64,000 bases of DNA from an uncultured Stenotrophomonas sp. (GTDB lineage: Bacteria; Pseudomonadota; Gammaproteobacteria; Xanthomonadales; Xanthomonadaceae): positions 1-64,000 of the forward strand of contig NZ_CAJYVQ010000012.1 of NCBI RefSeq assembly GCF_913778665.1, given 5' to 3'. This document shows positions 40,441-57,142 of this stretch, piece after piece. Position 1 is the first letter of the stretch, and each line of letters opens with the position of its first letter. The notes under the pieces are model-generated. The model was not told the origin of the DNA, made no database searches, and worked only from the letters and a program-made list of their open reading frames with translations. The translations under genes were made by a program, and so were the position numbers.

Positions 40441-41742
40441 TCACCCGGCGTTGGCATCCTTTCGCGGCAGCTTGTAGATCACCGCGCCGATTGCAAACGC
40501 TACCAGTGCAGCGGCAATGTTCTGCCAGCTGGCACTGGCGAACAGCGCCAGGCACAGCAGCAATGCCAGTACCGGAATCAGCGGGCCGCCGGGTAGCTTC
40601 AGTGCGCCGGGGCGGTCGGCGAAGCGCTTGGCCAGCACCAGGACCGCGGCGGCGGTACCGATGTAGGCGAACAGGCGCGTGGTCATCGACAGCAGCGCCA
40701 GCTGCACGAACGAGCCGGACAGGGCCAGGCCGAGCGCGATCAGGCCCTGGCACAGGATCGACGCGGCCGGCGTGTGGAAGCGCGGATGCACCTGGGCCAG
40801 GATCTTCGGGCCGTAGCCATCGCGTGCCAGCGCGAACAGGAAGCGCGGGCCCATCATCATCGTGTTGCTGTTGGTGCCGAGGATGGAGATGGTCGCGCCG
40901 ACAGTCAGGATCAGCGCCAGCGCTTCGCCACCGAAGCCGGCGGCGGCATCGGCCAGCGGCGTGGCCGAGCTGGCCAGCCCGGCCAGCGTGCCCTGTGCCA
41001 CCACCTGTACCGCGCCGTAGATGACGGTGACGGTGATGATCATGGTGATCAGTGCAAACGGAATATCGCGGCGCGGATTGCGGTACTCGCCCGCCGCAGC
41101 GGGGATGTTTTCGAAACCGGCGTAGGCGTACAGCAGCAGGAGCGCGGCCTCGCCCATGCGTTGCAGGTCATGCGGGTCCGGGCGCTGGCCGGAGAACGCC
41201 AGCTGTGGGTCGATATAGAACGCACCGATGGCCACGAACAGCAGCAGGGGCAGCATCTTGCCGATCACCAGCACCACGCCGGTCCGCGCGGCCGAGCGCA
41301 CGCCGATGATGTTGACGCCGGTCAGGAAGCCCAGCGACACCACGATGATCGCGATGCGCCCCATGCCGGCACCGGCCCATGGCCAGAACCGCGCGACCGC
41401 ATCGGCCAGCGCATTGCTCAATGCGGCCGCCGAGCTGATGCGGGTCAGCCAGATCATCCAGCCGATCTCGAATCCGGCGAAGCGCCCGAACGCTTCGCGC
41501 GCATACAGGTAGCTGCCGCCGGGTTCATCGAAGTAGCTGGCGGCCTGGGCGTAGCACAGCACCAGCAGCGCGACGACGATGCCGGCGGCGACCACGCCCC
41601 ACAGGCTGAAGGGGCCGAGCAGGGCGACGGTGGCGGCCGGCAGCAGGTAGATGCCGCTGCCTATCACATCGTTGATTGACAGGCCGACGATCTGCCAGCG
41701 GCTGACCGCGCGTTGCAGCTGCGGTTCGTCCTGCGCGCTCAA
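40441..41742 (-). CDS. APC-family amino-acid permease
   Basis: 433 residues with twelve membrane helices. The APC signature VGLSINDVIGSGIYLLPA lies in helix 1, and GFENIPAAAGEYRNPRRDIPFAL in the middle (the helix 6-7 region). It should bring amino acids or small dipeptide products into the cytoplasm. The TTG start at 41742 overlaps the TGA stop of the upstream YkuD-type gene (TTGA), implying coupled translation. As last gene of the minus arm of the peptidoglycan-peptide locus, it is a candidate importer for products such as D-Ala, L-Ala or Glu. Confidence 0.88.
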   Translation of the reverse strand: MSAQDEPQLQRAVSRWQIVGLSINDVIGSGIYLLPAATVALLGPFSLWGVVAAGIVVALLVLCYAQAASYFDEPGGSYLYAREAFGRFAGFEIGWMIWLTRISSAAALSNALADAVARFWPWAGAGMGRIAIIVVSLGFLTGVNIIGVRSAARTGVVLVIGKMLPLLLFVAIGAFYIDPQLAFSGQRPDPHDLQRMGEAALLLLYAYAGFENIPAAAGEYRNPRRDIPFALITMIITVTVIYGAVQVVAQGTLAGLASSATPLADAAAGFGGEALALILTVGATISILGTNSNTMMMGPRFLFALARDGYGPKILAQVHPRFHTPAASILCQGLIALGLALSGSFVQLALLSMTTRLFAYIGTAAAVLVLAKRFADRPGALKLPGGPLIPVLALLLCLALFASASWQNIAAALVAFAIGAVIYKLPRKDANAG

Positions 41743-42500
41743 CGGGCGTCTCCGCTGAGTGCGGGCAGCTGCCACTGGGCCTGCAGGCGTGTGTACTCGG
41801 CGCGCGGCAGCAGCACGAAGCGCGGCGCCTCCTGCGGGCGCAACCAGTCCAGCAGGGCCCGCATGCGTGCCTGCGGCATAGCGGTGCAGCCGGCCGTGGC
41901 CTCGCCGGGCTGGCGCCACAGATGGGCGAAGATGCAGCTGCCCTTGCCCGGCTGGTTGTCCGGATTGTGGGCGATCACGAAGCCTTCCTGGTAGCGCACG
42001 TCGCCCTTGTTGTGCAGGTCCAGCCGCATGGGCTCGGTGGAGCCCTTGATCGCCGCACTGCCGACTTTCCTTTCATCGACGATGCGGTTGTAGAACGGCG
42101 AGCCGGGTACGTCCATGCAGTAGCTGCTTTCAAGCATCGGCTGGTAGGCCATGGCCGTGCCTGGGCGTGTGACGGCATAGCCGAACGCGCTGCCGAGCGC
42201 GAACACGCCCGCCGGGCTGCGGCCATCGCCTTCCTGCTTCTGCGGGCCATCGGCCTGCGCCGGGTGCAGGCCCAGGCCCCAGGCACTGCCGGTGCGGCCA
42301 AGTGCCACCGGGAACGCCTCTCCATGCGCATGCCAGCCCTTGCCATCGCGCACATAGGCCTGCAGCTGGCCCTGGGTGCTGTCCCAGCCTTCGCTGGTGA
42401 CCACGATCAGCTGGCGCGCACCCTCCAGCGGCGCGGCGTGGACGGACACCGCTGCAGCAAGCAGCAGCGCAGCGGTAGCGCGACGGACCAGCGATTTCAT
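41739..42500 (-). CDS. secreted L,D-transpeptidase (YkuD) fold protein
   Basis: 253 residues with a signal peptide ending at VHA. The YkuD motif appears as SCIFAHLWRQPGEATAGCTAM, with His194 and catalytic Cys205, and a HNPDN / LDLHNKGD region before it. This subgroup (ErfK-like, with GLGLHP and DGRSPAGVFALG) includes proteins thought to act as peptidoglycan L,D-carboxypeptidases or transpeptidases. In this locus it may trim or transfer muropeptide stems. It is translated just before the permease and follows the RpiR gene by 16 bases. Confidence 0.86.
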   Translation of the reverse strand: MKSLVRRATAALLLAAAVSVHAAPLEGARQLIVVTSEGWDSTQGQLQAYVRDGKGWHAHGEAFPVALGRTGSAWGLGLHPAQADGPQKQEGDGRSPAGVFALGSAFGYAVTRPGTAMAYQPMLESSYCMDVPGSPFYNRIVDERKVGSAAIKGSTEPMRLDLHNKGDVRYQEGFVIAHNPDNQPGKGSCIFAHLWRQPGEATAGCTAMPQARMRALLDWLRPQEAPRFVLLPRAEYTRLQAQWQLPALSGDAR

Positions 42501-42515
42501 CAACAGGTGCTCCGG

Positions 42516-43364
42516 TCAGGAATCCAGCAGGTGATCGATCCGCTCCAGGTTCACCGCCAGCTGCTGCTGGCGGTCCGGATTGGTGTGGCAAAGCAGCACG
42601 AACAGGAAATCGAGCAGGGCATGCATGGCGCTACGGTACAGCAGCTGCGCGACCTGCGGCGTGCGATCGTGCGCGCACACCCCCAGTGCTGCGTCAGCAT
42701 GCGCGCGCAGCGGGTTGGCGGTGTGGCGGGTGATGGAAATCACCTTGCCACCCATGTCCTGGAACTGCCGCGACAGCTGCGAAAGCTGCGGCAGGTTGCC
42801 GAATTCGGAGAACACCAGCAGCGCATCGCCGGGGCGTGCGGCCGACAGGTTGGCCAGCATCAGGATCGGGTCGGTATGCGGTACCACCAGCAGGCCGAGC
42901 AGCGACAGCCGCATGGCGAACTCGCGGGCATACAGGCCGTCGTCACCCAGGCCGTACACGAACAGCTTGGGCGCGCCGTCGAGCAGCTGCACGATGCGCT
43001 CGATTTCCTCGCGTGGGTTGGCCTGGCGGGTTTCCTCCTCGGCCTGCGCCTTGCTGCGGCGCAGGGCGTCGCCCAGGCGCAGGTAGTCATCGCCACTGTC
43101 GGGTTCGCTGGGGGCCTGTTGTGGATCGGCACCGGCGCGAGCCACATCCTGGCCGATCGAGTACTTCAGGTCCGGGTAGCCCTTGAAGCCGAGCTTCTGG
43201 CTGAACTTCACCACGCTGGACTGGCTGATGCCGAGCGCACTGGCCAGTTGCTGGGACGAGTAGTCGCGCAGCAGGTGGGCGTTGTCGAGGATGAAGTCGG
43301 CGATGCGTCGCTCGATGGCCGACATCTGCCCGCGCTCGGAACGGATCTTCAGCAGGGGCGGCAT
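42516..43364 (-). CDS. RpiR/MurR-type transcriptional regulator
   Basis: 282 residues: an N-terminal RpiR helix-turn-helix (TSAIERRIADFIL-like region, SSQQLASALGISQSSVVKFS, residues about 14-70) and a C-terminal SIS domain (about 130-260). In the SIS domain the normal GxGxS loop reads GLGDDG (138-143), and the phosphosugar loop SxSGxT reads SEFGNL (186-191). Both lack the serine or threonine residues that bind sugar phosphates in MurR-like proteins. The ligand may therefore not be a phosphosugar. It sits inside the peptidoglycan-peptide locus and is the likely reader of the two inverted repeats at 46172 and 46203. Confidence 0.9.
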   Translation of the reverse strand: MPPLLKIRSERGQMSAIERRIADFILDNAHLLRDYSSQQLASALGISQSSVVKFSQKLGFKGYPDLKYSIGQDVARAGADPQQAPSEPDSGDDYLRLGDALRRSKAQAEEETRQANPREEIERIVQLLDGAPKLFVYGLGDDGLYAREFAMRLSLLGLLVVPHTDPILMLANLSAARPGDALLVFSEFGNLPQLSQLSRQFQDMGGKVISITRHTANPLRAHADAALGVCAHDRTPQVAQLLYRSAMHALLDFLFVLLCHTNPDRQQQLAVNLERIDHLLDS

Positions 43365-43534
43365 GCGGGGTTTCCGGGCATGTGTAGGCGCGTTGCGGCT
43401 GGCAGCGTAGAGCGTGTCATGGAATGGGTCGGGCGGGTCGGGTTTGCGGGGGACGCCGCACGTACGACCGAGGAGCACAGGGCACCGACGTGCGCAGCGC
43501 ATCGGCTCGCGGCCGGCGGAGCGTTTCTTTTGGC

Positions 43535-43562
43535 TACTTTTCTTTCCGCAGAAAGAAAAGTA
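43535..43562. terminator. long perfect palindrome between the epimerase and rpiR genes
   Basis: TACTTTTCTTTC-CGCA-GAAAGAAAAGTA, a 12-base-pair perfect inverted repeat with a 4-base loop. It has T-rich and A-rich arms rather than the GC-rich SMAG form. It lies 3' of the epimerase gene and may end or process that transcript before rpiR. Confidence 0.55.
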
Positions 43563-43611
43563 ACGCCCGACCGAACGTCAGTTGTACGCCAGGCCAGCCG
43601 CAAGGCAGAGA

Positions 43612-44706
43612 TCAACCCAGCATCTCCAGCCCACGCACTTCAGTAATGCCCAGCCCCGGCACATCACTGATGCTGATCTCCGATTCGTTGAAGTGCACGC
43701 CGCCGCTGACCGGGTCGAACTGGCCGAGCGACGGGCCGTCCAGGTCGACCTTGGTGATCACATCGCTCTTGGCCACCGCCAGGTGCACGGCGGCGGCGAC
43801 GCTGATGCTGGATTCGATCATGCAGCCGATCATGCACGGCACGCCGTAGATGCCCGCGATGTCGGCGATGCGGATTGCGTTGGACAGGCCGCCGGTCTTC
43901 ATCAGCTTGATGTTGATGATGTCGGCCGCGCGCTGCTGGATCAGGTCCATCACCTGGCTGGGGCTGAACACGCTTTCATCGGCCATCACCGGCGTGTTGA
44001 CGCGATCGGTGACGTACTTCAGGCCGCTGATGTCGGCCGCCTTCACCGGCTGCTCCAGCAGTTCCAGCACCACACCGGCCTCTTCCAGCGTGCGCATGGC
44101 ATGCACCGCCTGCTTGGCGGTCCAGCCCTGGTTGGCGTCCAGGCGCAGCAGGGCGCGGCCTTCGACGGCGGCATGGATCGCCTTGACCCGTTCGATGTCC
44201 AGGCCGATGTCCTTGCCCACCTTGATCTTCAGCGACTCGAAGCCGCGTTCGATGGCCGACAGTGAATCGGCCACCATCTTGTCGATGTAGTCCACGCTGA
44301 TGGTGATGTCGGTGGTGATCACCGGGTCGCCACCGCCAAGCATCTGGTACAGCGGCGCGCCGTGCAGCTGCGCCCACAGGTCGTACAGCGCGATCTCCAC
44401 CGCGGCCTTGGCGCTGGTGTTGCGCTCCATCGCGGTCTGCACCAGCCCGCACAGGCGGTTGAGGTTGGCCACGTCCTGGCCGATCAGGCGCGGCGCGATG
44501 AAGTGGCGGATCGCTTCGATGATCGAGCCGTGCGTATCACCGGTGATCACCGCAGTGGCGGGGGCTTCGCCGTAGCCGGTGTGGCCGGTGTCGGTGCGGA
44601 TCAGCACCACCACGTCCTCCACGGTCTCCACCGTGCGCAGGGCGGTCTTGAACGGCGTTTTCAGCGGCACGCGCAGCATGCCCAGTTCGATGGCGGTGAT
44701 CTTCAT
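43612..44706 (-). CDS. ycjG: L-Ala-D/L-Glu dipeptide epimerase
   Basis: 364 residues, enolase superfamily (muconate lactonising group). The catalytic lysines are in KIKVG, the metal ligands in RLDANQGW, LEQPV and MADES, and the second lysine in NIKLMKTGG. N-terminal ITAIELGMLRVPLKTPF is the usual capping domain. The enzyme turns L-Ala-D-Glu, released from peptidoglycan, into L-Ala-L-Glu that ordinary peptidases can split. Its start overlaps the stop of the NlpC/P60 gene by 4 bases (ATGA), so the two are coupled. Confidence 0.93.
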   Translation of the reverse strand: MKITAIELGMLRVPLKTPFKTALRTVETVEDVVVLIRTDTGHTGYGEAPATAVITGDTHGSIIEAIRHFIAPRLIGQDVANLNRLCGLVQTAMERNTSAKAAVEIALYDLWAQLHGAPLYQMLGGGDPVITTDITISVDYIDKMVADSLSAIERGFESLKIKVGKDIGLDIERVKAIHAAVEGRALLRLDANQGWTAKQAVHAMRTLEEAGVVLELLEQPVKAADISGLKYVTDRVNTPVMADESVFSPSQVMDLIQQRAADIINIKLMKTGGLSNAIRIADIAGIYGVPCMIGCMIESSISVAAAVHLAVAKSDVITKVDLDGPSLGQFDPVSGGVHFNESEISISDVPGLGITEVRGLEMLG

Positions 44707-46151
44707 TCAGGAGTCTTGGCCCGCAGGCGCTGGATGTTTGTGATGCGGTCGATGTAGCGGACGGTATCGCTGGCCATCATCGGCTCCAGCGGGGTGACCG
44801 AAACACCATTGAGGTGGGCCTGTACGCGCTTGCCGTCGGCACCGAACCAGCTGCCGCCCGCCGTATCATGGATGACCCAGGTGCGGCCGTCGACGTGGCC
44901 GATGGCCATCATCACGTGCCCGGGAATGTAGACCAGGTCGCCCACCTGCAGATCGGTGACCGCACGGTCGCGCGCGGCCTTGCCGACCTTCCCGGTGAAG
45001 GGCAGGCGGTCCAGTGCCGGGCTGATCGCCTGTGCGCTGGTATTGCGCGGCAGCAGCACGCCGAAGCTGCGGTAGATCTCGGAAACGAACCCGCTGCAGT
45101 CGCGGGTGTCGTAGTCGTGGCCCCAGCCATAGCGTTCGCCCAGGAACTTGAAGGCCTGCTGCAGCAGCAGGCGCGGGGTGAGCGGCAGGTAGTCGGCGGC
45201 GGTGTCCTGCGAGCGCGGCAGCAGCGCCGGCACCAGTTTCAGGCGGCCATCGGTTTCGCGCACCGGCAGCTGCACCACCCACGAGGCATGCGCCTGCTGG
45301 CCGTTCACCGGTTCGGCGGCGGGCCAGTCGGCCAGCACCGGCAGGCGCACGCCCATGTCCAGCTGCAGGCGCGAGACGCGCGGTTCCTCCGGGGTGTAGG
45401 CGGTCTGCGCCGTGGCACCGGTGATGATGCGGTACGGTCCCTTCGCGCCGTAGCCGAGCACCGTGGCCTTGTCGCCGCTGGCGATGGCGTCGGCTTCGAT
45501 CCACGCGCTGTAGCGCTCGCTGTGCACGAACAGCCAACGGCCGTCGGCACTGCGGTGGACCACGGCGACCTTGTCGCCGGGGAACAGTGCCGATTCCTGG
45601 AAGCGGTCGATGTCGGTGTCGCCGGCCGTGCTGAAGACGCGTTCGCGGGTGGGGAAGGTGCGCAGCGCCGCGCGTTTCACCACCAGGCCGAAGGCTGGTG
45701 ACACCTGGGAAGGAATCGCATCGAGGCCGAGGTTGGCTTCGATGCCACTGCGCAGCGCGGGGGCGATGGCCTGGCCCTTCTCGTTGAACAGTACACGCTT
45801 GGGCCAGCGCGACAATGCGCTGATGCTGGCGCGTACCTGCGCGGCATCGAGCTGTGCGGGCAGTGCGGCGATGTCCTGGATGTGGCTGTCCTGCGCCCGC
45901 ATCCGCGCGTTCTGCGCGTCGATCTGCGCGCGATCCAGGATCGGCGCATCGGCATCGTCCAGCCGCGCCGCCCAGTACTGGGGCGTCAGATAGGCCTCGT
46001 GCAGGCCGATCACATAGGGCAGCGGCGCGCCCGGGTCAGGTGGCGGGGCAGCCTGTGCGAAGGCCGGTGCGGCCAGCAGGCACAGGGCCAGGGTCAACCG
46101 GCGCGGCCATTGCCGGTCCGGTGCGCGGGAAGCCAGGATCATGCGCTGCAT
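44703..46151 (-). CDS. NlpC/P60 endopeptidase with SH3-like domain
   Basis: 482 residues with a signal peptide ending at FAQA. The middle part has SH3b-type strands (about 155-225), and the NlpC/P60 catalytic domain starts near residue 330: catalytic Cys352 in DCSGFV, His412 in PGHVMMAIG, and DTAGG later. Such enzymes cut the gamma-D-Glu to diamino-acid bond in muropeptides, giving L-Ala-D-Glu, the substrate of the epimerase encoded next. GGAGG lies very close to the first ATG; an ATG three codons later (46142) is a possible start. First gene of the minus arm of the locus. Confidence 0.92.
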   Translation of the reverse strand: MQRMILASRAPDRQWPRRLTLALCLLAAPAFAQAAPPPDPGAPLPYVIGLHEAYLTPQYWAARLDDADAPILDRAQIDAQNARMRAQDSHIQDIAALPAQLDAAQVRASISALSRWPKRVLFNEKGQAIAPALRSGIEANLGLDAIPSQVSPAFGLVVKRAALRTFPTRERVFSTAGDTDIDRFQESALFPGDKVAVVHRSADGRWLFVHSERYSAWIEADAIASGDKATVLGYGAKGPYRIITGATAQTAYTPEEPRVSRLQLDMGVRLPVLADWPAAEPVNGQQAHASWVVQLPVRETDGRLKLVPALLPRSQDTAADYLPLTPRLLLQQAFKFLGERYGWGHDYDTRDCSGFVSEIYRSFGVLLPRNTSAQAISPALDRLPFTGKVGKAARDRAVTDLQVGDLVYIPGHVMMAIGHVDGRTWVIHDTAGGSWFGADGKRVQAHLNGVSVTPLEPMMASDTVRYIDRITNIQRLRAKTPE

Positions 46152-46171
46152 ACCCTCCTCGAATGCCAGCT

Positions 46172-46185
46172 GGAATATTTATTCC
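46172..46185. promoter_or_regulatory. inverted repeat 1 between the divergent arms, candidate RpiR operator
   Basis: GGAATA-TT-TATTCC, perfect 6+6 arms. It lies about 20 bases before the NlpC/P60 start, where the minus-strand -10 region would be (TTGCTT, 16 bases, TAAATA on the minus strand). Confidence 0.55.
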
Positions 46186-46202
46186 TTTCTCTGGCGAAAG
46201 CA

Positions 46203-46217
46203 AGAATAAATTATTGA
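46203..46217. promoter_or_regulatory. inverted repeat 2 between the divergent arms, candidate RpiR operator
   Basis: AGAATA-AAT-TATTGA, a weaker version of repeat 1, centred about 31 bases (three helical turns) away. It overlaps the -35 box of the plus-strand promoter (46214-46219). Confidence 0.5.
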
Positions 46218-46242
46218 CCGGTCCCCCGGCCCGTGTTACACA
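46214..46242 (+). promoter_or_regulatory. sigma-70 promoter of the plus arm
   Basis: TTGACC at 46214-46219, a 17-base spacer, and TACACA at 46237-46242. The transcript would start about 25 bases before the transglutaminase-like gene and could run through the TonB receptor, serine hydrolase and VanX genes. Confidence 0.6.
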
Positions 46243-46274
46243 GCCATTACCACCCGCGCTGGGGAAGTGTCGCT

Positions 46275-47765
46275 GTGGATCCTGCCGTTCGCAAACCGCG
46301 TCTGACTGCCGCCGCCGGCCTGTGCGCCGCGCTGCTGCTGTGGGCGTGGTCGGCGGGAGCGGAGCCGCCGCCTTCGGCCATCCAGTTTGCACGTGTTGTG
46401 CAGATGATCGACGCGGGACGGTTCTTGGAAGCTCAGCGCGAACTGAACACCTGGTCGGCCGCCGACGCAGCGGAGCCTGGCGTCAGTTTCGACGACATCG
46501 CGTTCCAGGAAGAACGCATGCGCCGCATCCGCCTGGATTTTCCCCTCGACGAAACCGCTGCCAAGTCCGCCGTGCGCCGCTGGATTCCCGACCTCACCGA
46601 CGAGGAATTCGTGCGCTGGGAGCAGCTCGGCCTGATCGAACACCTCGATATCGATGGCACGCGCTGGTACTTCAAGCGTGCACCATCCAACCTGTTCCTG
46701 CTCAGCGACGAGGCACGTGCACGCCGCCGCGCGGATGCACCGATGCCGGCGCCGGGCGCGAACGAAGTGCTCAATGCACACCATGCGAGGGTGATTGCTG
46801 CGGCCGAACGGAGCGGCCGGGCTTCGGTGCTGCCGCAGCGCATTGAATTCACCCAGTCGCTGACGGTGAAGGCCGATGCGGTGCCGGCCGGTGAAACCGT
46901 GCGCGTCTGGATTCCGTACCCGCGTGAGATTCCGGGCCAGCAGGAGCAGGTGCAGTGGCTGGGCAGCACGCCGGGCAAGGCACGCGTGGCTCCGGCCAGT
47001 ACCTTGCAGCGCACCGCCTACCTGGAAGCCAAGGCCGTAGCGGGCAAGCCGACCCGCTTCGAGATCCGCTACGCAGCGACGATCTTCGCCCGGCATGCCG
47101 CGATCGATCCGGCCAAGGTGCAACCGACCCCGGCCGATCCGGCCTTGAAGCCCTACCTGGCCGAGCAGCTGCCGCACGTGCGCTTCACCCCCGCGCTGAA
47201 GCTTTTCTCCGACCAAGTGCTGCAGGGCGAGAAGCGCCCGTATGAAGTGGTGCGCAAGCTGTTTGCTGCGGTCGATCGCATTCCCTGGGCAGGCGCGCGC
47301 GAGTATTCCACGCTCAGCAACATCAGCGATTACGCCTTGCGCGCAGGCCATGCCGACTGCGGCCAGCAGACCCTGCTGTTGATCGCGCTGTTGCGCATGA
47401 ACGGCATCCCCGCGCGCTGGCAGTCGGGCATGGTGTTCTCCGACGATGGCAGCGCCTACAACAACCTGCATGACTGGGGGCAGGTCTATCTGGCGCCGTA
47501 TGGGTGGCTGCCAATGGACGTGACCACCGGCGCACTGGCCAGTGACACGCCGGCACTACGCGATTTCTACCTGGGTGGCCTCGATGGCTACCGCATCGCC
47601 TTCAACGATGATTTCGGCCAGCCGTTGGTGCCGGCCAAACAGCATTTCCGCTCGGAAACGGTCGACTCGCAGCGCGGCGAGGCCGAGTGGGCAGGCGGCA
47701 ACCTGTACTTCGACCAATGGAGCTACGACTTCCAGTGGCGGGTACTGCCAGCCAGGCAACGCTAG
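46275..47765 (+). CDS. secreted transglutaminase-like protease domain protein
   Basis: 496 residues with a signal peptide ending at SAGA. The N-terminal half is unassigned. The C-terminal domain is a transglutaminase-like fold with the full catalytic triad: Cys362 in GHADCGQQT, His399 in LHDWGQVYL and Asp415 in PMDVT. Bacterial members are often peptidases or amidases. The GTG at 46275 was chosen because GGGGAAG lies 8 bases before it and the signal peptide starts soon after. First gene of the plus arm, 51 bases ahead of the TonB receptor. Confidence 0.85.
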   Translation: MDPAVRKPRLTAAAGLCAALLLWAWSAGAEPPPSAIQFARVVQMIDAGRFLEAQRELNTWSAADAAEPGVSFDDIAFQEERMRRIRLDFPLDETAAKSAVRRWIPDLTDEEFVRWEQLGLIEHLDIDGTRWYFKRAPSNLFLLSDEARARRRADAPMPAPGANEVLNAHHARVIAAAERSGRASVLPQRIEFTQSLTVKADAVPAGETVRVWIPYPREIPGQQEQVQWLGSTPGKARVAPASTLQRTAYLEAKAVAGKPTRFEIRYAATIFARHAAIDPAKVQPTPADPALKPYLAEQLPHVRFTPALKLFSDQVLQGEKRPYEVVRKLFAAVDRIPWAGAREYSTLSNISDYALRAGHADCGQQTLLLIALLRMNGIPARWQSGMVFSDDGSAYNNLHDWGQVYLAPYGWLPMDVTTGALASDTPALRDFYLGGLDGYRIAFNDDFGQPLVPAKQHFRSETVDSQRGEAEWAGGNLYFDQWSYDFQWRVLPARQR

Positions 47766-47816
47766 CGCGACACATCACATTCCACACCATTCAATTCTTG
47801 CAGGAGAGAGCAGGGG

Positions 47817-50800
47817 ATGAAGGCTTACAGCATCAAGCGGGCGGCGTTGTGCGTCGCCCTTGGGGCGTGTCTGGGCGCAATGCTGCCCGGCATCGCGATG
47901 GCGCAGAACGTGAATGGCGCGGTCGCCGGCCGTGCAACTGCCGGTGACCAGGTCACCGTGGTCAGCAGCAGCACCGGCCTGACCCGCACCGTCACCGTGG
48001 GCAGCGATGGCAGCTACCGTCTCGGCCAGCTGCCGGTGGGTGACTACCAGCTGCAGCTCAGTCGCGATGGCCAGAAGCTGGGCGATCAGGTATCGGTGAG
48101 CGTTGCCGTCGGTGGTACCACGACGGTCAATCTGGCCAGCGGCGGTGGCGTCACCAATCTTGACGCACTGCAGGTGGTCGGTACGCGCGTGGTCAATCGC
48201 GTGGATGTCTACTCCACCGAAACCGCGTTCAACATCAACCGCCAGGAAATCTCGCGGCTGCCGGTGGCCCAGGATCTGTCCGCGGTGGCGCTGATGGCGC
48301 CGGGCGTGGTGGGGGGCAACTCGTCCTTTGGCGGCCTGTCATTTGCCGGTTCATCGGTGGCCGAGAATGCGGTCTTCATCAACGGCCTGAACGTCACCGA
48401 CATGTATACCCGTCGTGGCTTCAGCACGGCGCCGTTTGCCTTTTTCAACGAGTTCCAGGTCAAGACCGGCGGCTACTCGGTGGAGTTCGGCCGCTCCACC
48501 GGTGGCGTGATCAATGCCGTGACCCGCTCGGGCAGCAATGAATTCGAAGGCGGCGTGGAAGTCACCGCCGAGCCCAGTGCATGGCGTGCCAGCGGCGGCG
48601 ATCATTTCCATCGCGATGGCACGCCGCATTCCTATGGCAGCCGTGACAACAACTCGTTCCTGAAAACCAATGTCTGGGGTTCCGGGCCGATCATCAAGGA
48701 CAAGCTGTTCCTGTTCGCGATGTACGAAGACCGCAGCGACAAGGGTCACAACACCTCGTCCGATGGCAGCACCTGGTTCAAGAACGATTCCGGCAACGGC
48801 TTCTGGGGCACCAAGCTGGACTGGAACATCAACGACAACCACAGCCTGGCACTGCTGGCATTCTCCGACGAAGGCGACGTCACCAATGCCTCGTACGGCT
48901 ACAACTGGAATGCTGACCAGCTTGGTGCCTGGGGCGGCGATTCGGTTACCGAGACCGGCGGCCGCAACTGGTCGGCTACCTACACCGGCCACTTTGGCCA
49001 GAATTTCACCGCCCGCGCCATGGTCGGCCAGAACAACCAGCGCGCGTTCACCAACTCGTCGCTGGACCAGGCCTGCAGCCCGGTGTTCACCGACAGCACC
49101 TACGGCCCGCGGTTGAGCAAGCTGCAGGGCCTGCGTGCCGGCTGCCATCCGACCGGTGCGGCCGTGGCCGAGCGGGACGATACCCGCGATGTGGCGCGCC
49201 TGGACTTCGAATGGCAGCTTGGCGACCACCTGCTGCGCTTCGGTGTGGACCGCGAGTTGATGACCACCAAGCAGTCCACCCGCTACCCGGGTCCGAGCGA
49301 GCTGAGCTACACCGCCTACGTGGCGCGTCCCGGCGATGAAGTGTGGGATGGTGCCAATGCCTACGTGCCGGCGGGCGTCACCGAAATGCTGCGCGCACGC
49401 AACCGCAAATCCGGTGGTACGTTCGAAACGGAGGCCAATGCCTTCTACCTGGAAGACATCTGGAACATCACCCCGAACCTGATGCTGAACCTCGGCGTGC
49501 GCTGGGACCGCTTCGAGAACCGCACCGCTGCCGGCGAGGCGTTCATCAAGATGGACGACCTGATCGCGCCGCGCGTCGGTTTCTCCTGGGACATGCGCGG
49601 CGATGGCAGCAGCAAGCTGTTCGGCAACGCCGGCCGCTACTACCTGCCAGTCACCAACAACATCAACGTGAACTTCGCCGGCGGCTTGACCGACGAATAC
49701 AGCTACTACGTGCTCAACGGCTGGGAACAGAAAACCTCGCCGACCGGATCGCCATACATGGCCCCGATCGTTGGCCAGCAGATCGGGCCGACCGACACCC
49801 GCATGAATACCGGTGGTGCTGACCTGCGCCAGAGCGTGGACCGTGACCTGAAGGCGGTTTACCAGGACGAATACATCCTGGGCTTCCAGAACATGATCAA
49901 CCAGGCCTGGTCGTGGGGCGTCAACGCCACCTACCGGCGCATGACCCGCGCGCTGGATGACATCCGCATCAACTACACCCCGTGCGGCCCGACCCCGAGC
50001 ACGCTGTGGCCGATCGCCAACCCGGGCGAGAGCCTGACGATCTGGGGTGACAAGAGCATCGGCTGCGCCAACGAAGGCTGGATCACCATCGATACCGCCA
50101 ACAGCGGCTACCGCAAGGGCGGCAGCGGCGAGGTGATCGGGTACTCCAAGCCCAAGCGCACCTACAAGGCGCTGGAGTTCCAGATCGACCGTGCCTGGGA
50201 CGAGAAGTGGCTGTTCAATGCGTCCTACCTGTGGTCCAAGAGCGAGGGCAACTTCGAGGGCCCGGTGAACTCCGATACCAACTACGGTGATACCGGCATG
50301 GTGCAGTTCTGGGATCATCCGGCTACCAACGAACGCTATGGCGTGCTGTTCAACGACTTCCGCCATCAGTTCAAGCTTCGCGCCGCGTATGCACTGAACA
50401 AACAGTGGTCGTTCGGCACCACGCTGCAGGTGCAGTCCGGTGGCCCGATTACCGCCTACGGCGTGATGTGGCCCAACGACTCCATTGCCGGTGGCAGCAC
50501 GTCCAGTGAAGGCAGCGGTGGCGGCACCGGCTGGCTGTGCGTGGCCAACTGCGCGGGCCCGTACAACCAGCGGCAGTTCGAGTACAGCCCGCGTGGTGCG
50601 TTCGGTCGCCTGCCGTGGACCTGGAACATGGGCGCCAATGTGACCTGGCGCTTGCCGGTGGAGGGCATCGACCTCAGCGCGCGGTTGTCGGTGTACAACG
50701 TGTTCAACAACCAGAAGACCATCAACGTGCACCAGCGCTATGAAGCACAGCCCGGCCAGTACCGCGAGGCGACCTTTGCAACCGGCACGCGCTGGCAGGC

Positions 50801-50840
50801 CCCGCGCTATACCCAGCTGGTGGTGACCTGGAACTTCTGA
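47817..50840 (+). CDS. Oar-like TonB-dependent receptor
   Basis: 1007 residues with a signal peptide ending at AMA. An N-terminal carboxypeptidase-regulatory-like domain (about 30-115, GSDGSYRLGQLPVGDYQLQL) is followed by a possible TonB box (LDALQVVGT), the plug domain (about 140-245, FINGLNVTDMYTRRG, GGVINAVTRSGSNEF) and a large beta barrel ending in VTWNF. Several Cys pairs in extracellular loops (DQACSPVF, AGCHPT, WLCVANCAG) suggest disulphides. This Oar-type receptor group is linked to uptake of peptides or oligomers. Here the likely cargo is peptidoglycan-derived peptides, judged only from the neighbours. Confidence 0.92.
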   Translation: MKAYSIKRAALCVALGACLGAMLPGIAMAQNVNGAVAGRATAGDQVTVVSSSTGLTRTVTVGSDGSYRLGQLPVGDYQLQLSRDGQKLGDQVSVSVAVGGTTTVNLASGGGVTNLDALQVVGTRVVNRVDVYSTETAFNINRQEISRLPVAQDLSAVALMAPGVVGGNSSFGGLSFAGSSVAENAVFINGLNVTDMYTRRGFSTAPFAFFNEFQVKTGGYSVEFGRSTGGVINAVTRSGSNEFEGGVEVTAEPSAWRASGGDHFHRDGTPHSYGSRDNNSFLKTNVWGSGPIIKDKLFLFAMYEDRSDKGHNTSSDGSTWFKNDSGNGFWGTKLDWNINDNHSLALLAFSDEGDVTNASYGYNWNADQLGAWGGDSVTETGGRNWSATYTGHFGQNFTARAMVGQNNQRAFTNSSLDQACSPVFTDSTYGPRLSKLQGLRAGCHPTGAAVAERDDTRDVARLDFEWQLGDHLLRFGVDRELMTTKQSTRYPGPSELSYTAYVARPGDEVWDGANAYVPAGVTEMLRARNRKSGGTFETEANAFYLEDIWNITPNLMLNLGVRWDRFENRTAAGEAFIKMDDLIAPRVGFSWDMRGDGSSKLFGNAGRYYLPVTNNINVNFAGGLTDEYSYYVLNGWEQKTSPTGSPYMAPIVGQQIGPTDTRMNTGGADLRQSVDRDLKAVYQDEYILGFQNMINQAWSWGVNATYRRMTRALDDIRINYTPCGPTPSTLWPIANPGESLTIWGDKSIGCANEGWITIDTANSGYRKGGSGEVIGYSKPKRTYKALEFQIDRAWDEKWLFNASYLWSKSEGNFEGPVNSDTNYGDTGMVQFWDHPATNERYGVLFNDFRHQFKLRAAYALNKQWSFGTTLQVQSGGPITAYGVMWPNDSIAGGSTSSEGSGGGTGWLCVANCAGPYNQRQFEYSPRGAFGRLPWTWNMGANVTWRLPVEGIDLSARLSVYNVFNNQKTINVHQRYEAQPGQYREATFATGTRWQAPRYTQLVVTWNF

Positions 50841-50852
50841 GGCCAACGCCGC

Positions 50853-50953
50853 GTGGAGCGCCGGGCGTGCCCGGCGTTGCCGCGCACTCCGTAGCGTCGA
50901 GCTCGCTCGACGGCTTCGGGTGGCGCCGATCCGTGGAGCAGGCGCGACGCTAC
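50853..50953. repeat. SMAG-type palindromes at the start of the serine hydrolase gene
   Basis: AGCGCCGGGCGTGCCCGGCG (50858-50877) followed by a larger unit from GTAGCGTCG (50891) to CGACGCTAC (50953), whose ends are inverted. The second unit reaches the first codons of the next gene. Confidence 0.75.
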
Positions 50954-52474
50954 GTGTGCATTGCGGTGCTGGCTGTTCCCACGGCCTCCATCGATGCCGA
51001 TGTCGCGGCCATCGTCCACCGCGAGCATCTGCCCGGGATCGCGCTGGCGGTGGTCGACAATGGGCAGGTGGTCTACCAGCATGCGGAGGGTGCGCGCGGT
51101 GATGGCGGCGACATCGACCAGGACACGCTGTTCAAGATCGCCTCCAACAGCAAGGCGATGACCGCCGCGCTGCTGGCACGGCTGGTGCAGCAGGGCAGGC
51201 TGCGCTGGGATGACCCGGTGCAGCGCTACCTGCCCAGCTTCCGCATGCATGATGCGTGGGTCGGCCAGCAGATGCAGGTGCGCGATCTGCTGATCCACAA
51301 CAGTGGCCTCGGCCTGGGTGCGGGTGACCTGATGCTGTGGCCGGAGCCGAACACATTCACCCGCGCCGACATCATCGCGGGCCTGGCGCACCTGAAGCCG
51401 GTCAGCAGTTTCCGCAGCCGCTACGCCTACGACAACCTGATGTATGTGGTGGCCGGTGAAGTGGCCGCAGCGGCCGGTGGCAAACCTTACGATCAGCTGA
51501 TGCGCGAGCAGGTGTTCGAGCCGCTCGACATGGACCGTTGCCAGGTGGGCGCGTGGCCGGTAAAGCAGGTGGGCAACGTGGCGCAGCCCCATGCCTGGCG
51601 CGATGGTCGCAATGAGGTGGTGAACGCCGATGCTGCGATCAGCCCGGACCTGCCCTCGATGGCGGCCGGCGGCATCCGCTGCTCGCTGCGCGACATGACG
51701 CGTTGGATGCAGGTGCTGCTGGACTCTTCCCTGGTCCCTGATTGGCTCAGTGCCGGGCAGCGCCGTACGTTGTGGACCCTGCACATGCCGATGCCATTGA
51801 GCGAGCGCCAGCAGCGCTGGGACAACGCCCACTTCTACGGCTATGGCTACGGCTGGCGGGTGTCGGACATGGACGGGCAGTGGAAGGTGGCGCACACCGG
51901 CACGCTGTCGGGCATGTATTCGTCGCTGGCCCTGCTGCCGGACCGCAAGGTGGGCGTGGTGATGCTGATCAACGGCGAAGGCGAGGATGCGCGTACCGCG
52001 TTGATGCAGGCCATGCTGAAGCGCTTTACCGCACCCGATGATGCGCGTCCGGCGACGGAGTACCTGGCTGAACTGAAGGCTGACCAGGCCGCGCGAGTGG
52101 CGACCGGCCATCAGCGGCCATCCCTGGCTCCGGCACGCGAGACACGTCGCACTGATCTGCCACGCTGGCAGGGCCGTTACACCGACCCCTGGCTGGGGCC
52201 GGCCTCGCTGTGCCCGGGCAAGGAGGGCCTGCGTTTCAGCGTGGAGAAGTCGCCGAAGCTGCAGGGCGACGTGCTGCAGGTGCAAGGGCGCTGGCTGCTG
52301 CGCTGGGATACGCTGGGCGACGAGGCGCAGGCGTGGCTGCAACCGGGCGAAGGCCAGGTGCCGACGCTGGACCTGCGCGCCATCGATCCGGACATCGACT
52401 TCAGCTATGACTTCCAGGATCTGCATTTCACTCGTACTGGCGACTGCGCTGGCCGCGACCGCCCACGCCGCTGA
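50933..52474 (+). CDS. beta-lactamase-fold serine hydrolase
   Basis: About 513 residues from a GTG at 50933; the start is uncertain because repeat DNA covers it. The active-site motifs of the penicillin-binding/class C fold are complete: SNSK (Ser71, Lys74), YDN (Tyr166) and HTG (His321, replacing KTG). A C-terminal domain of about 130 residues follows. HTG in place of KTG, and the location, point to a peptidase or esterase of the ClbP/EstB kind rather than a drug-resistance beta-lactamase. The N-terminal CIAVLAVPTAS could be the remnant of a signal peptide. It overlaps the VanX-type gene by 68 bases. Confidence 0.82.
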   Translation: MEQARRYVCIAVLAVPTASIDADVAAIVHREHLPGIALAVVDNGQVVYQHAEGARGDGGDIDQDTLFKIASNSKAMTAALLARLVQQGRLRWDDPVQRYLPSFRMHDAWVGQQMQVRDLLIHNSGLGLGAGDLMLWPEPNTFTRADIIAGLAHLKPVSSFRSRYAYDNLMYVVAGEVAAAAGGKPYDQLMREQVFEPLDMDRCQVGAWPVKQVGNVAQPHAWRDGRNEVVNADAAISPDLPSMAAGGIRCSLRDMTRWMQVLLDSSLVPDWLSAGQRRTLWTLHMPMPLSERQQRWDNAHFYGYGYGWRVSDMDGQWKVAHTGTLSGMYSSLALLPDRKVGVVMLINGEGEDARTALMQAMLKRFTAPDDARPATEYLAELKADQAARVATGHQRPSLAPARETRRTDLPRWQGRYTDPWLGPASLCPGKEGLRFSVEKSPKLQGDVLQVQGRWLLRWDTLGDEAQAWLQPGEGQVPTLDLRAIDPDIDFSYDFQDLHFTRTGDCAGRDRPRR

Positions 52475-53120
52475 GCCGCCCCGCGTCTCGCCCGCCACCG
52501 ATGCCGCCGTGGCCGGACTGGTGGAGATCCGCACGCTGTCGCCGCACATCGAGCTGGATATCCGTTACGCGACGGCGAACAACTTCACCGGCGCGCCGGT
52601 ACCCGGTTACGAGGCGCCGGCCTGCTACCTGCTGGCGCCGGTCGCGAAGGCACTGGCCCAGGCGGAGCAGGATCTGCGTGGGCAGGGCTTTGGCCTGCGT
52701 CTCTACGATTGCTATCGGCCGGTACGATCGGTGCAGGCCTTCATGGCCTGGGTGAACGATCCGCGCGAGCAGTCACGCAAGGCCGCGCAATACCCCGACC
52801 TGGACAAGCCGCAACTGCTGGCCGACGGCTATATCGCCGAACGTTCCGGCCACAGCCGCGGTGCCACGGTCGATCTCGGCCTGCTGGATTGCCGCATCGG
52901 TACCTGCACGCCGCTGGATATGGGCACCGATTTCGACTTCTTCGGCCCGCGTGCGCATACACGGACGAGCGGGCTGAGTGAAGCGCAGCAGGCCAACCGG
53001 CGGCAGCTGGTGCAGGCGATGGCATGGCGTGGTTTCGTGAACTATCCGCAGGAATGGTGGCACTACACGTTCCAGCCGGAACCGGATCCAGCGACCGCCT
53101 ACGACGTTCCCGTGCGGTAG
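52407..53120 (+). CDS. ddpX: D-alanyl-D-alanine dipeptidase (VanX/DdpX family)
   Basis: 237 residues with a signal peptide ending at AHA. The zinc and catalytic residues of VanX are all present with the right spacing: Arg104 in CYRP, His149 and Asp156 in SGHSRGATVD, Glu216 and His219 in EWWHY. The enzyme splits D-Ala-D-Ala into two D-Ala. No vanH, vanA or vanS partner is present, so the role is catabolic rather than glycopeptide resistance. It begins 68 bases inside the end of the serine hydrolase gene in another frame. Last clear gene of the locus. Confidence 0.93.
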   Translation: MTSRICISLVLATALAATAHAAEPPRVSPATDAAVAGLVEIRTLSPHIELDIRYATANNFTGAPVPGYEAPACYLLAPVAKALAQAEQDLRGQGFGLRLYDCYRPVRSVQAFMAWVNDPREQSRKAAQYPDLDKPQLLADGYIAERSGHSRGATVDLGLLDCRIGTCTPLDMGTDFDFFGPRAHTRTSGLSEAQQANRRQLVQAMAWRGFVNYPQEWWHYTFQPEPDPATAYDVPVR

Positions 53121-55777: not shown

Positions 55778-57142
55778 ATGAGCGCCTCCTTCGTTTCGCC
55801 CGATGTGATCCGCCGCCTGTTCGCGCAGGCCATGTCCCGCATGTACCGCACCGAAGTGCCGCTGTACGGCACGCTGGTGGAACTGGTCGAGCGGATCAAC
55901 GCGCAGGTGCTTGTGCAGGACCCGGCGCTGGCCGCGCAGCTGCAGCGCAACGACGAGCGCGCGCGGCTGGATGAAGAACGCCATGGCGCGATCCGCGTCG
56001 GCACCGTTCAGGAGCTGGCCACGCTGCGCCGCCTGTTCGCGGTGATGGGCATGTACCCGGTCGGCTACTACGACCTGTCGGTGGCCGGCGTGCCGGTGCA
56101 TTCCACCGCGTTCCGCCCGCTCACCGGCGCCGCGCTCGCGCAGAACCCGTTCCGCGTGTTCACCTCGCTGCTGCGCCTGGAGCTGATCGAAGACCAAGCG
56201 CTGCGTGCCGAATCGGCGAAGATCCTGGCCCGCCGCCGCATCTTCACCGACGGCGCGCTGGCGCTGATCGAGCAGGCCGAGCGTGACGGCGGCCTGTCGC
56301 AGGCCGATGCCGATCGCTTCGTCGATGAAGCGCTGGAAACCTTCCGCTGGCATGGTGATGCCACCGTCGATCTGCCGACCTACCAAGCGCTGCACGACGC
56401 GCACCGGCTGGTGGCCGACGTGGTCAGCTTCCGTGGCCCGCACATCAACCATCTCACCCCGCGCACGCTGGATATCGACGCCGCGCAGGCGGCAATGATC
56501 GAACACGGCATGGCGGCCAAGGCGGTGATCGAGGGCCCGCCGCGGCGCGCCTGCCCGATCCTGCTGCGGCAGACCAGCTTCAAGGCGCTGGAAGAGGCGG
56601 TGCACTTCCCGGACAGCGAGGGCGGCGATGCCGGCACCCATACCGCGCGCTTCGGCGAGATCGAACAGCGCGGCCTTGCCCTGACCCCGAAGGGCCGCGC
56701 GCTGTACGACCAGCTGCTGGCGCAGGCGCGCGACGCCGGCGGAGCCGGCAGCACCGGTGGCGACTACGGCCAGCGCCTGCAGGCGGTGTTTGCCAGCTTC
56801 CCGGATGACCACGACACCCTGCGCCAGGAAGGCCTGGGCTACTACCGCTACCAGCTGACCGAGGCCGGCCGTGCCGCGCCCGAGCGCGTGGCTGATCTGC
56901 CGGCCGAAGTGCTGGTGGCCACCGGCTTGGCCACGGCCGACCCGATCGTCTACGAAGATTTCCTGCCGGTCAGCGCCGCGGGCATCTTCCAGTCGAACCT
57001 GGGGGGCGAAGAGCAGCGCGCCTATGCCGCGCATGCGAACCGCGAGGCCTTCGAGCAGGCGTTGGGCGTGGCGGTGAATGACGAGTTCGAGATCTACGAG
57101 CGGCTGCAGGCCGAATCGCTGGCGGCGCTGCGTATCGCGTGA
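55778..57142 (+). CDS. hglS: 2-oxoadipate dioxygenase/decarboxylase (HglS, DUF1338)
   Basis: 454 residues, single VOC-like metal-binding domain of the DUF1338/YdcJ family. The iron ligands expected for HglS appear as His69 in EERHGAIRVG, His222 in RGPHINHLTPR and Glu294 in FGEIEQRG. HglS turns 2-oxoadipate into D-2-hydroxyglutarate in lysine breakdown, using oxygen. No other lysine-catabolic gene is in the window, so the pathway must be completed elsewhere. It converges with the CoA-transferase gene. Confidence 0.88.
   Translation: MSASFVSPDVIRRLFAQAMSRMYRTEVPLYGTLVELVERINAQVLVQDPALAAQLQRNDERARLDEERHGAIRVGTVQELATLRRLFAVMGMYPVGYYDLSVAGVPVHSTAFRPLTGAALAQNPFRVFTSLLRLELIEDQALRAESAKILARRRIFTDGALALIEQAERDGGLSQADADRFVDEALETFRWHGDATVDLPTYQALHDAHRLVADVVSFRGPHINHLTPRTLDIDAAQAAMIEHGMAAKAVIEGPPRRACPILLRQTSFKALEEAVHFPDSEGGDAGTHTARFGEIEQRGLALTPKGRALYDQLLAQARDAGGAGSTGGDYGQRLQAVFASFPDDHDTLRQEGLGYYRYQLTEAGRAAPERVADLPAEVLVATGLATADPIVYEDFLPVSAAGIFQSNLGGEEQRAYAAHANREAFEQALGVAVNDEFEIYERLQAESLAALRIA

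Follow-up and report, generated by a model that had tools for sequence, protein, structure and literature searches.

In Bacillus the genes ykfBC encode an L-Ala-D/L-Glu epimerase and an endopeptidase for the γ-D-Glu-diaminopimelate (DAP) bond, and the two genes also occur together in a number of other bacteria (PMC2954226). We analysed a related group of nine genes in a stretch of 64,000 nt (the window; contig NZ_CAJYVQ010000012.1 of an uncultured Stenotrophomonas sp., positions 1 to 64,000 of the forward strand). It shares with ykfBC the adjacent epimerase and NlpC/P60 genes, and among solved structures its epimerase is closest to 1JPM/1TKK; it differs in having Asn in the place of Asp256, a TonB-dependent receptor, a transglutaminase-fold enzyme (TG), a YkuD-fold protein, a VanX-type dipeptidase, an RpiR regulator and a shared operator. 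The MpaA-YcjG and Mpl-AmpG recycling of E. coli, as described in PMC9928106, has the stem-peptide products and the L-Ala-D/L-Glu epimerase step in common with our locus. In contrast to E. coli recycling, the locus in the window contains neither AmpG nor Mpl, it includes an outer-membrane receptor and most of the dismantling would take place outside the inner membrane. In the carbohydrate-scavenging loci of Xanthomonas a TonB receptor, enzymes, an inner-membrane transporter and a local regulator occur together and the substrates are plant sugars. The window locus follows the same plan with wall peptides as its predicted substrate instead. We consider it probable that the locus is inducible and scavenges stem peptides of peptidoglycan from the surroundings, fed by its TonB receptor.

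The nine genes lie at positions 40441-53120 of the window in two divergent arms. All nine had been described in an earlier note, made from the letters of the window alone, and all were found again with Pfam domains above the respective cut-offs. In reading order the minus arm consists of nlpC (SH3_6 and NLPC_P60), the epimerase (MR_MLE N and C), rpiR (HTH_6 and SIS), ykuD (YkuD, 29.8 bits with a cut-off of 23.4) and the permease (AA_permease_2). The plus arm consists of TG (Transglut_core), the Oar-like receptor (CarboxypepD_reg and beta barrel), the serine hydrolase (Beta-lactamase) and vanX (Peptidase_M15). DUF3471 stayed below its Pfam cut-off in the scan of the locus (21 vs 29.3). By eye, export signals are present at the N-termini of NlpC, YkuD, TG and VanX and absent from the epimerase.

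We searched for the epimerase in 247 genomes of the family Xanthomonadaceae (E ≤ 1e-20) and obtained a match in 168. Two sets of loci were then compared. The first has 60 loci from 59 genomes and 30 of the 37 genera with an epimerase match; it was chosen by us and contains the epimerase by construction. The second has the 58 full-length loci among the best 80 named loci (the other 22, below 21 kb, were not counted); 12 of the 58 also belong to the set of 60, as judged by identical epimerase DNA. Loss and exchange of genes were read from presence and absence only. Across the stretches of ~20 kb in the set of 60 we found nlpC in 59, rpiR in 54, ykuD and Oar in 50 each, the serine hydrolase in 48, TG in 47 and vanX in 27. 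The seven core genes, which exclude vanX and the permease, were all present in 35/60 loci and in 45/58 named loci. The order ykuD-rpiR-epimerase-nlpC, divergent from TG-Oar-serine hydrolase, recurs through the 30 genera of the first set while the flanks vary.

An order-wide search detected the NlpC in 47 of 151 genomes, and 20 of these loci were fetched. The same divergent plan occurs in another family of the order (f2): 11 of its 13 loci show it (one without an Oar match, another without a serine-hydrolase match) and two are reduced. In a further family (f188) all five loci combine nlpC, epimerase and amidase with a divergent Oar-like receptor (25-29% identity). A locus from family f184 combines ykuD, epimerase and nlpC with a divergent vanX, and the own family contributes one additional locus (L216), with nlpC alone. 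TG was absent at E ≤ 1e-40 from 365 genomes taken from the class but not from the own family, a draw with few relatives from the order; a restriction of TG to the own family was rejected, as the loci of the second family carry it. One record titled Bacillus subtilis SK7B5 (L119) contains this NlpC at 75% identity and is therefore probably a mislabelled or contaminated assembly. Gene order in relatives had been set beforehand as one of the refuting tests, and the proposal survived it: the order is kept across the family and in a second family. Together with the conserved operator this arrangement exceeds chance, and a chance neighbourhood is ruled out.

Two dyads of the type GAATA..TATTC, GGAATATTTATTCC (site I) and GAATAAATTATTG (site II), lie between the arms (46172-46216) at a distance of 31 bp. 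We aligned 118 distinct sequences on site II, preselected at ≤3 mismatches, and located site I by an automatic rule as the last GAATA. Site I was found at the same 31-bp distance in 106 of the 118, and the spacer carries little information. Site II runs into TTGACC followed by TGTTACACA; TTGAC is 98-100% conserved among the preselected 118, and TTGACC with TGTTACACA may form a promoter-like element of the TG arm. A strict consensus scan of the intergenic stretch did not return the TTGACC promoter. Its one promoter lies on the minus strand (GTAACA-18-AATAAT, 46239-46210; shuffles of the 400-bp stretch gave a mean of 0.0), and over 13.6 kb the scan gave 2 sites vs 1.9 expected. If real, the minus-strand promoter would serve the nlpC arm and overlap site II.

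For 138 full loci we compared the presence of rpiR with the best match to the 17-mer at site II in the 2 kb upstream of nlpC. With rpiR in the stretch (123 loci) the 17-mer was found at ≤3 mismatches in 122 cases and at 5 in the remaining one. Among the 15 loci without rpiR there were nine at 6-8 mismatches and six at 0-4, where the best matches in 200 first-order Markov shuffles had 5 to 8. The loci are related and these counts are thus not independent; after deduplication of the upstream sequences (126 loci) the site was present at 0-3 mismatches in 110 of 111 loci with rpiR, and the 15 without rpiR were the same. One of the nine (L210) scored 6 mismatches yet has exact dyads before its epimerase and its receptor, so that the operator is truly lost in eight rpiR-less loci rather than nine. 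These eight are spread over six genera. As for the six that keep the site, L079 (0 mismatches) has its rpiR on a neighbouring stretch of the same genome (L080), in L213-L215 (3-4 mismatches), which belong to f188, rpiR may lie outside the stretch, and L081 and L146 retain the site at 3-4 mismatches without rpiR. Each of the five f188 loci carries GAATAAATTATTC, in either orientation, a short way ahead of the epimerase or of nlpC, as well as GAATAAATAATTC ahead of the receptor match. In this family (L210, L211, L213-L215) a dyad seems to precede each transcription unit, a dispersed form of the two-site switch. A wider regulon was rejected for the window's own genome, where neither a second copy of the 17-mer nor another site occurs at ≤3 mismatches.

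That wall and transport genes with no common task were merely kept together by shared ancestry is something we regard as extremely improbable. Longer chromosome blocks are indeed retained in some relatives (GH3 neighbours in 21/60 loci, GSDH in 18/60). However, the core persists although the flanks differ from genus to genus, the plan recurs in another family with an operator that differs by one base, and the operator is gone from eight of the 15 loci that lack rpiR.

The regulator has the HTH_6 and SIS architecture of MurR. In MurR/RpiR proteins Ser motifs of the SIS domain bind a phosphosugar; in the locus regulator, GLGGS and SYSGS of MurR (7en5/7en6) read GLGDD and SEFGN. D188 is kept in 46/46 sequences and E233 in 45/46. 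We rejected an assignment to the phosphosugar type given the replacement of the Ser motifs by other, partly acidic residues. The ligand may instead be a peptide or an amino acid.

Several relatives add genes that point to peptidoglycan as the substrate. LysA, the DAP decarboxylase, occurs in 14/60 loci (plus arm) and in 7/58; a representative scored 471.7 bits against TIGR01048 (cut-off 297.9). All nine LysA-locus genomes tested have a second LysA elsewhere with a long frame (882-1024 codons; just below the cut-off in 5/9), taken to be an aspartate kinase fusion. Among six genomes without a locus LysA four had the long-frame gene only and two added a weak match far below the cut-off. The locus LysA is therefore extra and points to DAP as a product. 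Amidase_2 was found in 15/60 and 12/58 stretches (10 of 60 by ORF clustering) and an M19 dipeptidase in 5/60 and 1/58 (2 of 60). The substrate proposed in the earlier note, peptidoglycan peptides, is supported by the LysA, amidase and M19 genes of relatives and by the 1JPM-like epimerase. The operator and these accessory genes are the best new evidence and lay outside the reasoning of that note.

Conserved residues of the enzymes were counted over the window and those loci of relatives in which the ORF caller found the gene. Barrel lysines, metal ligands, Arg24 and a C-terminal D-x-D mark the L-Ala-D/L-Glu epimerase YkfB of B. subtilis. In our epimerase R24, T135, K160, K162, D190, E218, D243, K267, D321 and D323 are kept in 39/39 sequences and the match to 1JPM/1TKK reaches 356 bits; against the NCBIfam model of the Thermotoga-type epimerase it scored 251.5 bits, below the equivalog cut-off of 500. 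Glutamate racemase was not detected above the cut-off in any of 15 genomes (six had weak matches far below it), which makes the epimerase a plausible way back from wall D-Glu. In line with this, PMC8788868 reports MurD2/MurL and no D-Glu-forming gene for several of these genera. In them the dipeptide epimerase would be an obvious means of turning wall D-Glu back into L-Glu.

The NlpC protein (NLPC_P60 43.7 bits, SH3_6 58.3 bits, both above cut-off) keeps C352 and H412 in 52/52 sequences and belongs to the NlpC/P60 endopeptidases with SH3b domains. Its nearest solved relatives by sequence, DvLysin (3m1u) and PnpA (6sqx), are four-domain enzymes of the DvLysin/PnpA/EcgA group (PMC7860986). Xu reportedly distinguished lysins from recycling enzymes in 2015, a distinction cited in part in PMC7860986 and PMC9928106. 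PMC2954226 defines the YkfC recycling subfamily by Asp256 together with the SH3b Tyr118. The equivalents in our protein are Asn370 and Y214, both in 52/52 sequences. In our reading of the alignment the window NlpC thus keeps the recycling-type SH3b Tyr, where DvLysin has Ala and PnpA Thr; with Asn370 in place of the Asp an assignment to the YkfC recycling enzymes was rejected. Cleavage of the γ-D-Glu-DAP bond is predicted. The further claim that the enzyme frees L-Ala-D-Glu is left uncertain by the substituted Asp.

The YkuD protein keeps H194 and C206 in 34/34 sequences, 16 of which have a lipobox in a simple pattern search. Its predicted fold is nearest to the L,D-carboxypeptidases Pgp2 and Csd6, and it may have the same activity; a sequence search against solved structures yielded no more than weak matches to unrelated proteins. 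The catalytic residues claimed earlier for TG, the serine hydrolase and VanX are kept in the aligned relatives: C376/H413/D429 of TG in 41/41, S93/K96/Y188/N190/H343/G345 of the serine hydrolase in 40/40, and R104/H149/D156 of VanX in 19/19 with E216/H219 in 18/19 (one gap). VanX-type enzymes are recognized by their Zn ligands and catalytic Glu and Arg, and our protein has them; it scored 154.5 bits against 1r44 and 186.4 bits against the NCBIfam VanX model, below the cut-off of 320. TG had no match in a sequence search of solved structures. A general function in the uptake and digestion of branched or D-amino-acid-containing peptides, such as non-ribosomal or protein fragments, would suit the Oar-like receptor, TG and the serine hydrolase, none of which has a fixed substrate. 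The epimerase residues, NlpC/P60, VanX, the amidase and the DAP decarboxylase jointly indicate peptidoglycan, however, and we judge the general function very unlikely.

Three kinds of TonB receptor occur, at least one of them in 56/60 and 57/58 stretches and none in 4/60 and 1/58; in some relatives the Oar-like receptor is swapped for unrelated TonB receptors. As a receptor is nearly always part of the locus, uptake of peptides from outside is likely. The last slot of the minus arm is taken by an APC permease in 20/60 and 39/58 loci, by an SDF/GltP-like symporter in 30/60 and 19/58 and by neither in 10/60 and 0/58. The two never occur together (0/118 loci, 12 counted twice) and are thus mutually exclusive in one slot although they are very different carriers. 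A DUF819 protein is found in 12/60 and 4/58 loci and is a candidate importer for L-Ala-D-Glu or stem peptides. In most of the DUF819 loci (L044, L048, L061 and nine others; most f2 loci) this membrane protein belongs to the minus arm and lies upstream of nlpC.

In the proposed scheme the Oar-like receptor would carry muropeptides or stem peptides across the outer membrane. D-Ala would then be trimmed in the periplasm by the serine hydrolase (by D,D-activity), YkuD (as an L,D-carboxypeptidase) and VanX. There NlpC would cut the γ-D-Glu-DAP bond and, in some relatives, the amidase would free the peptide from MurNAc. The products would enter via the APC permease, the SDF symporter or the DUF819 protein. 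In the cytoplasm the epimerase would convert L-Ala-D-Glu to L-Ala-L-Glu, and a dedicated LysA could use the released DAP in some relatives. RpiR would repress both arms from the two dyads and be released on binding a product.

Several observations weigh against this scheme. Turnover of the cell's own wall would require many of the same enzymes, 79 of the 247 family genomes have no epimerase match, the core is incomplete in part of the loci (all seven genes in 35/60 and 45/58) and six of the 15 rpiR-less loci still match site II. NlpC lacks the Asp of the type acting on free peptides, and we know of no peptidoglycan role for TG and of no APC or SDF transporter that carries peptides. Furthermore, the window locus contains no known L-Ala-D-Glu importer for an epimerase without a signal peptide.

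We also weighed the possibility that the enzymes serve to trim the cell's own peptidoglycan within the periplasm and to recover it, with the receptor only recapturing lost fragments. The YkuD, AmpH-like and NlpC folds are typical of wall editors, the residue pattern of NlpC is half lysin-like, and AmpG and Mpl coexist in the genome. Nevertheless, periplasmic turnover needs no receptor, yet the receptor is exchanged but seldom missing, the extra LysA indicates the use of DAP, and those 79 family genomes manage without the epimerase. We think it unlikely that the own wall is the main source. AmpG and Mpl were detected above cut-off on other contigs of the window's genome, and both in 15/15 genomes tested, that genome among them. 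An organism without AmpG was thereby rejected, as was a classical AmpG-Mpl recycling locus, neither gene being in the locus. As for the peptide-only route distinct from classical recycling that the earlier note had proposed, scavenging of external stem peptides would be a parallel route and not a replacement, because AmpG and Mpl lie elsewhere in the genome (no search was made for NagZ, MurQ, MurD2 or MurL). The pathway had also been called complete, and the window locus is without an amidase, a DAP-using enzyme or a known L-Ala-D-Glu importer. That reading was partly supported, right in direction and overstated in completeness.

Table 1. Features of the locus, with positions in the window
Feature	Positions	Strand	Basis and remarks
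APC-family amino-acid permease (perm)	40441..41742	-	Pfam/NCBIfam and sequence; likely TTG start 41742
Exported YkuD-fold protein	41739..42500	-	H194 and C206 conserved; fold prediction closest to Pgp2, Csd6
RpiR/MurR-type regulator, HTH_6 and SIS	42516..43364	-	Pfam/NCBIfam; SIS phosphosugar motifs replaced
L-Ala-D/L-Glu-type dipeptide epimerase	43612..44706	-	Pfam/NCBIfam, structure-sequence match, residues; no signal peptide seen
Exported SH3b and NlpC/P60 endopeptidase	44703..46151	-	Pfam; DvLysin/PnpA nearest solved structures; Y214, N370 invariant
Operator site I, GGAATATTTATTCC	46172..46185	.	Dyad, aligned relatives
Operator site II, GAATAAATTATTG	46204..46216	.	TTGACC begins with its last three bases
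Putative promoter-like element of TG arm, TTGACC and conserved TGTTACACA	46214..46242	+	
Exported transglutaminase-fold cysteine enzyme (TG), helical N-terminal part	46275..47765	+	Triad C376/H413/D429 numbered from 46233
Oar-like TonB-dependent outer-membrane receptor	47817..50840	+	Pfam/NCBIfam
Serine hydrolase, class C beta-lactamase/AmpH fold	50867..52474	+	Pfam/NCBIfam, residues; start uncertain
Exported VanX-type D-Ala-D-Ala dipeptidase	52407..53120	+	Sole Peptidase_M15 match in genome

Four starts were corrected by eye (TG to GTG 46275, the permease to TTG 41742, ykuD to ATG 42500 and rpiR to ATG 43364). For TG we preferred 46275 over the GTG 46233 of the ORF because the latter falls within the conserved promoter-like element. 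The permease start overlaps the ykuD stop, and nlpC and the epimerase overlap by 4 bases. A GTAG-type hairpin at 50891-50911, between Oar and the serine hydrolase, resembles the SMAG repeats of Stenotrophomonas. Between the epimerase and rpiR there is a palindrome, ACTTTTCTTTCTGCGGAAAGAAAAGT (43536-43561), beside a terminator-like site; a repeat family at this place was rejected, as the 29-mer 43524-43552 overlapping the palindrome is single-copy in the genome at ≤3 mismatches. HGLS, a 2-oxoadipate dioxygenase/decarboxylase (548.6 bits), is encoded at 55778-57142, 2.7 kb past vanX, and in some relatives an aldehyde dehydrogenase, AmaB-like by eye, lies beside the locus. A link from DAP via lysine to 2-oxoadipate is possible.

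No description of the locus was found among the matches listed for the open-access literature, with subscription papers mostly outside the search. Descriptions of how wall fragments are taken up usually concern the inner membrane, with AmpG and Opp (PMC9928106). More speculatively, and in our view less likely than not, this would be a locus for using peptidoglycan whose receptor is dedicated to cell-wall peptides, as far as the literature search shows the first such TonB receptor. RpiR would then sense a wall peptide or its amino acid directly, through an SIS pocket in which acidic residues have taken the place of phosphate-binding serines, and Xanthomonadales could live on the walls of neighbours that have been killed. 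The locus may also alter the muropeptide pool, which controls beta-lactamase induction in this group. The operator, of which the genome of the window has a single copy, lends itself to use as a reporter of the inducer. With its outer-membrane receptor, the dismantling in the periplasm and its own operator, a conserved locus of this kind would make feeding on the walls of other bacteria directly testable in Stenotrophomonas, Lysobacter and their relatives.

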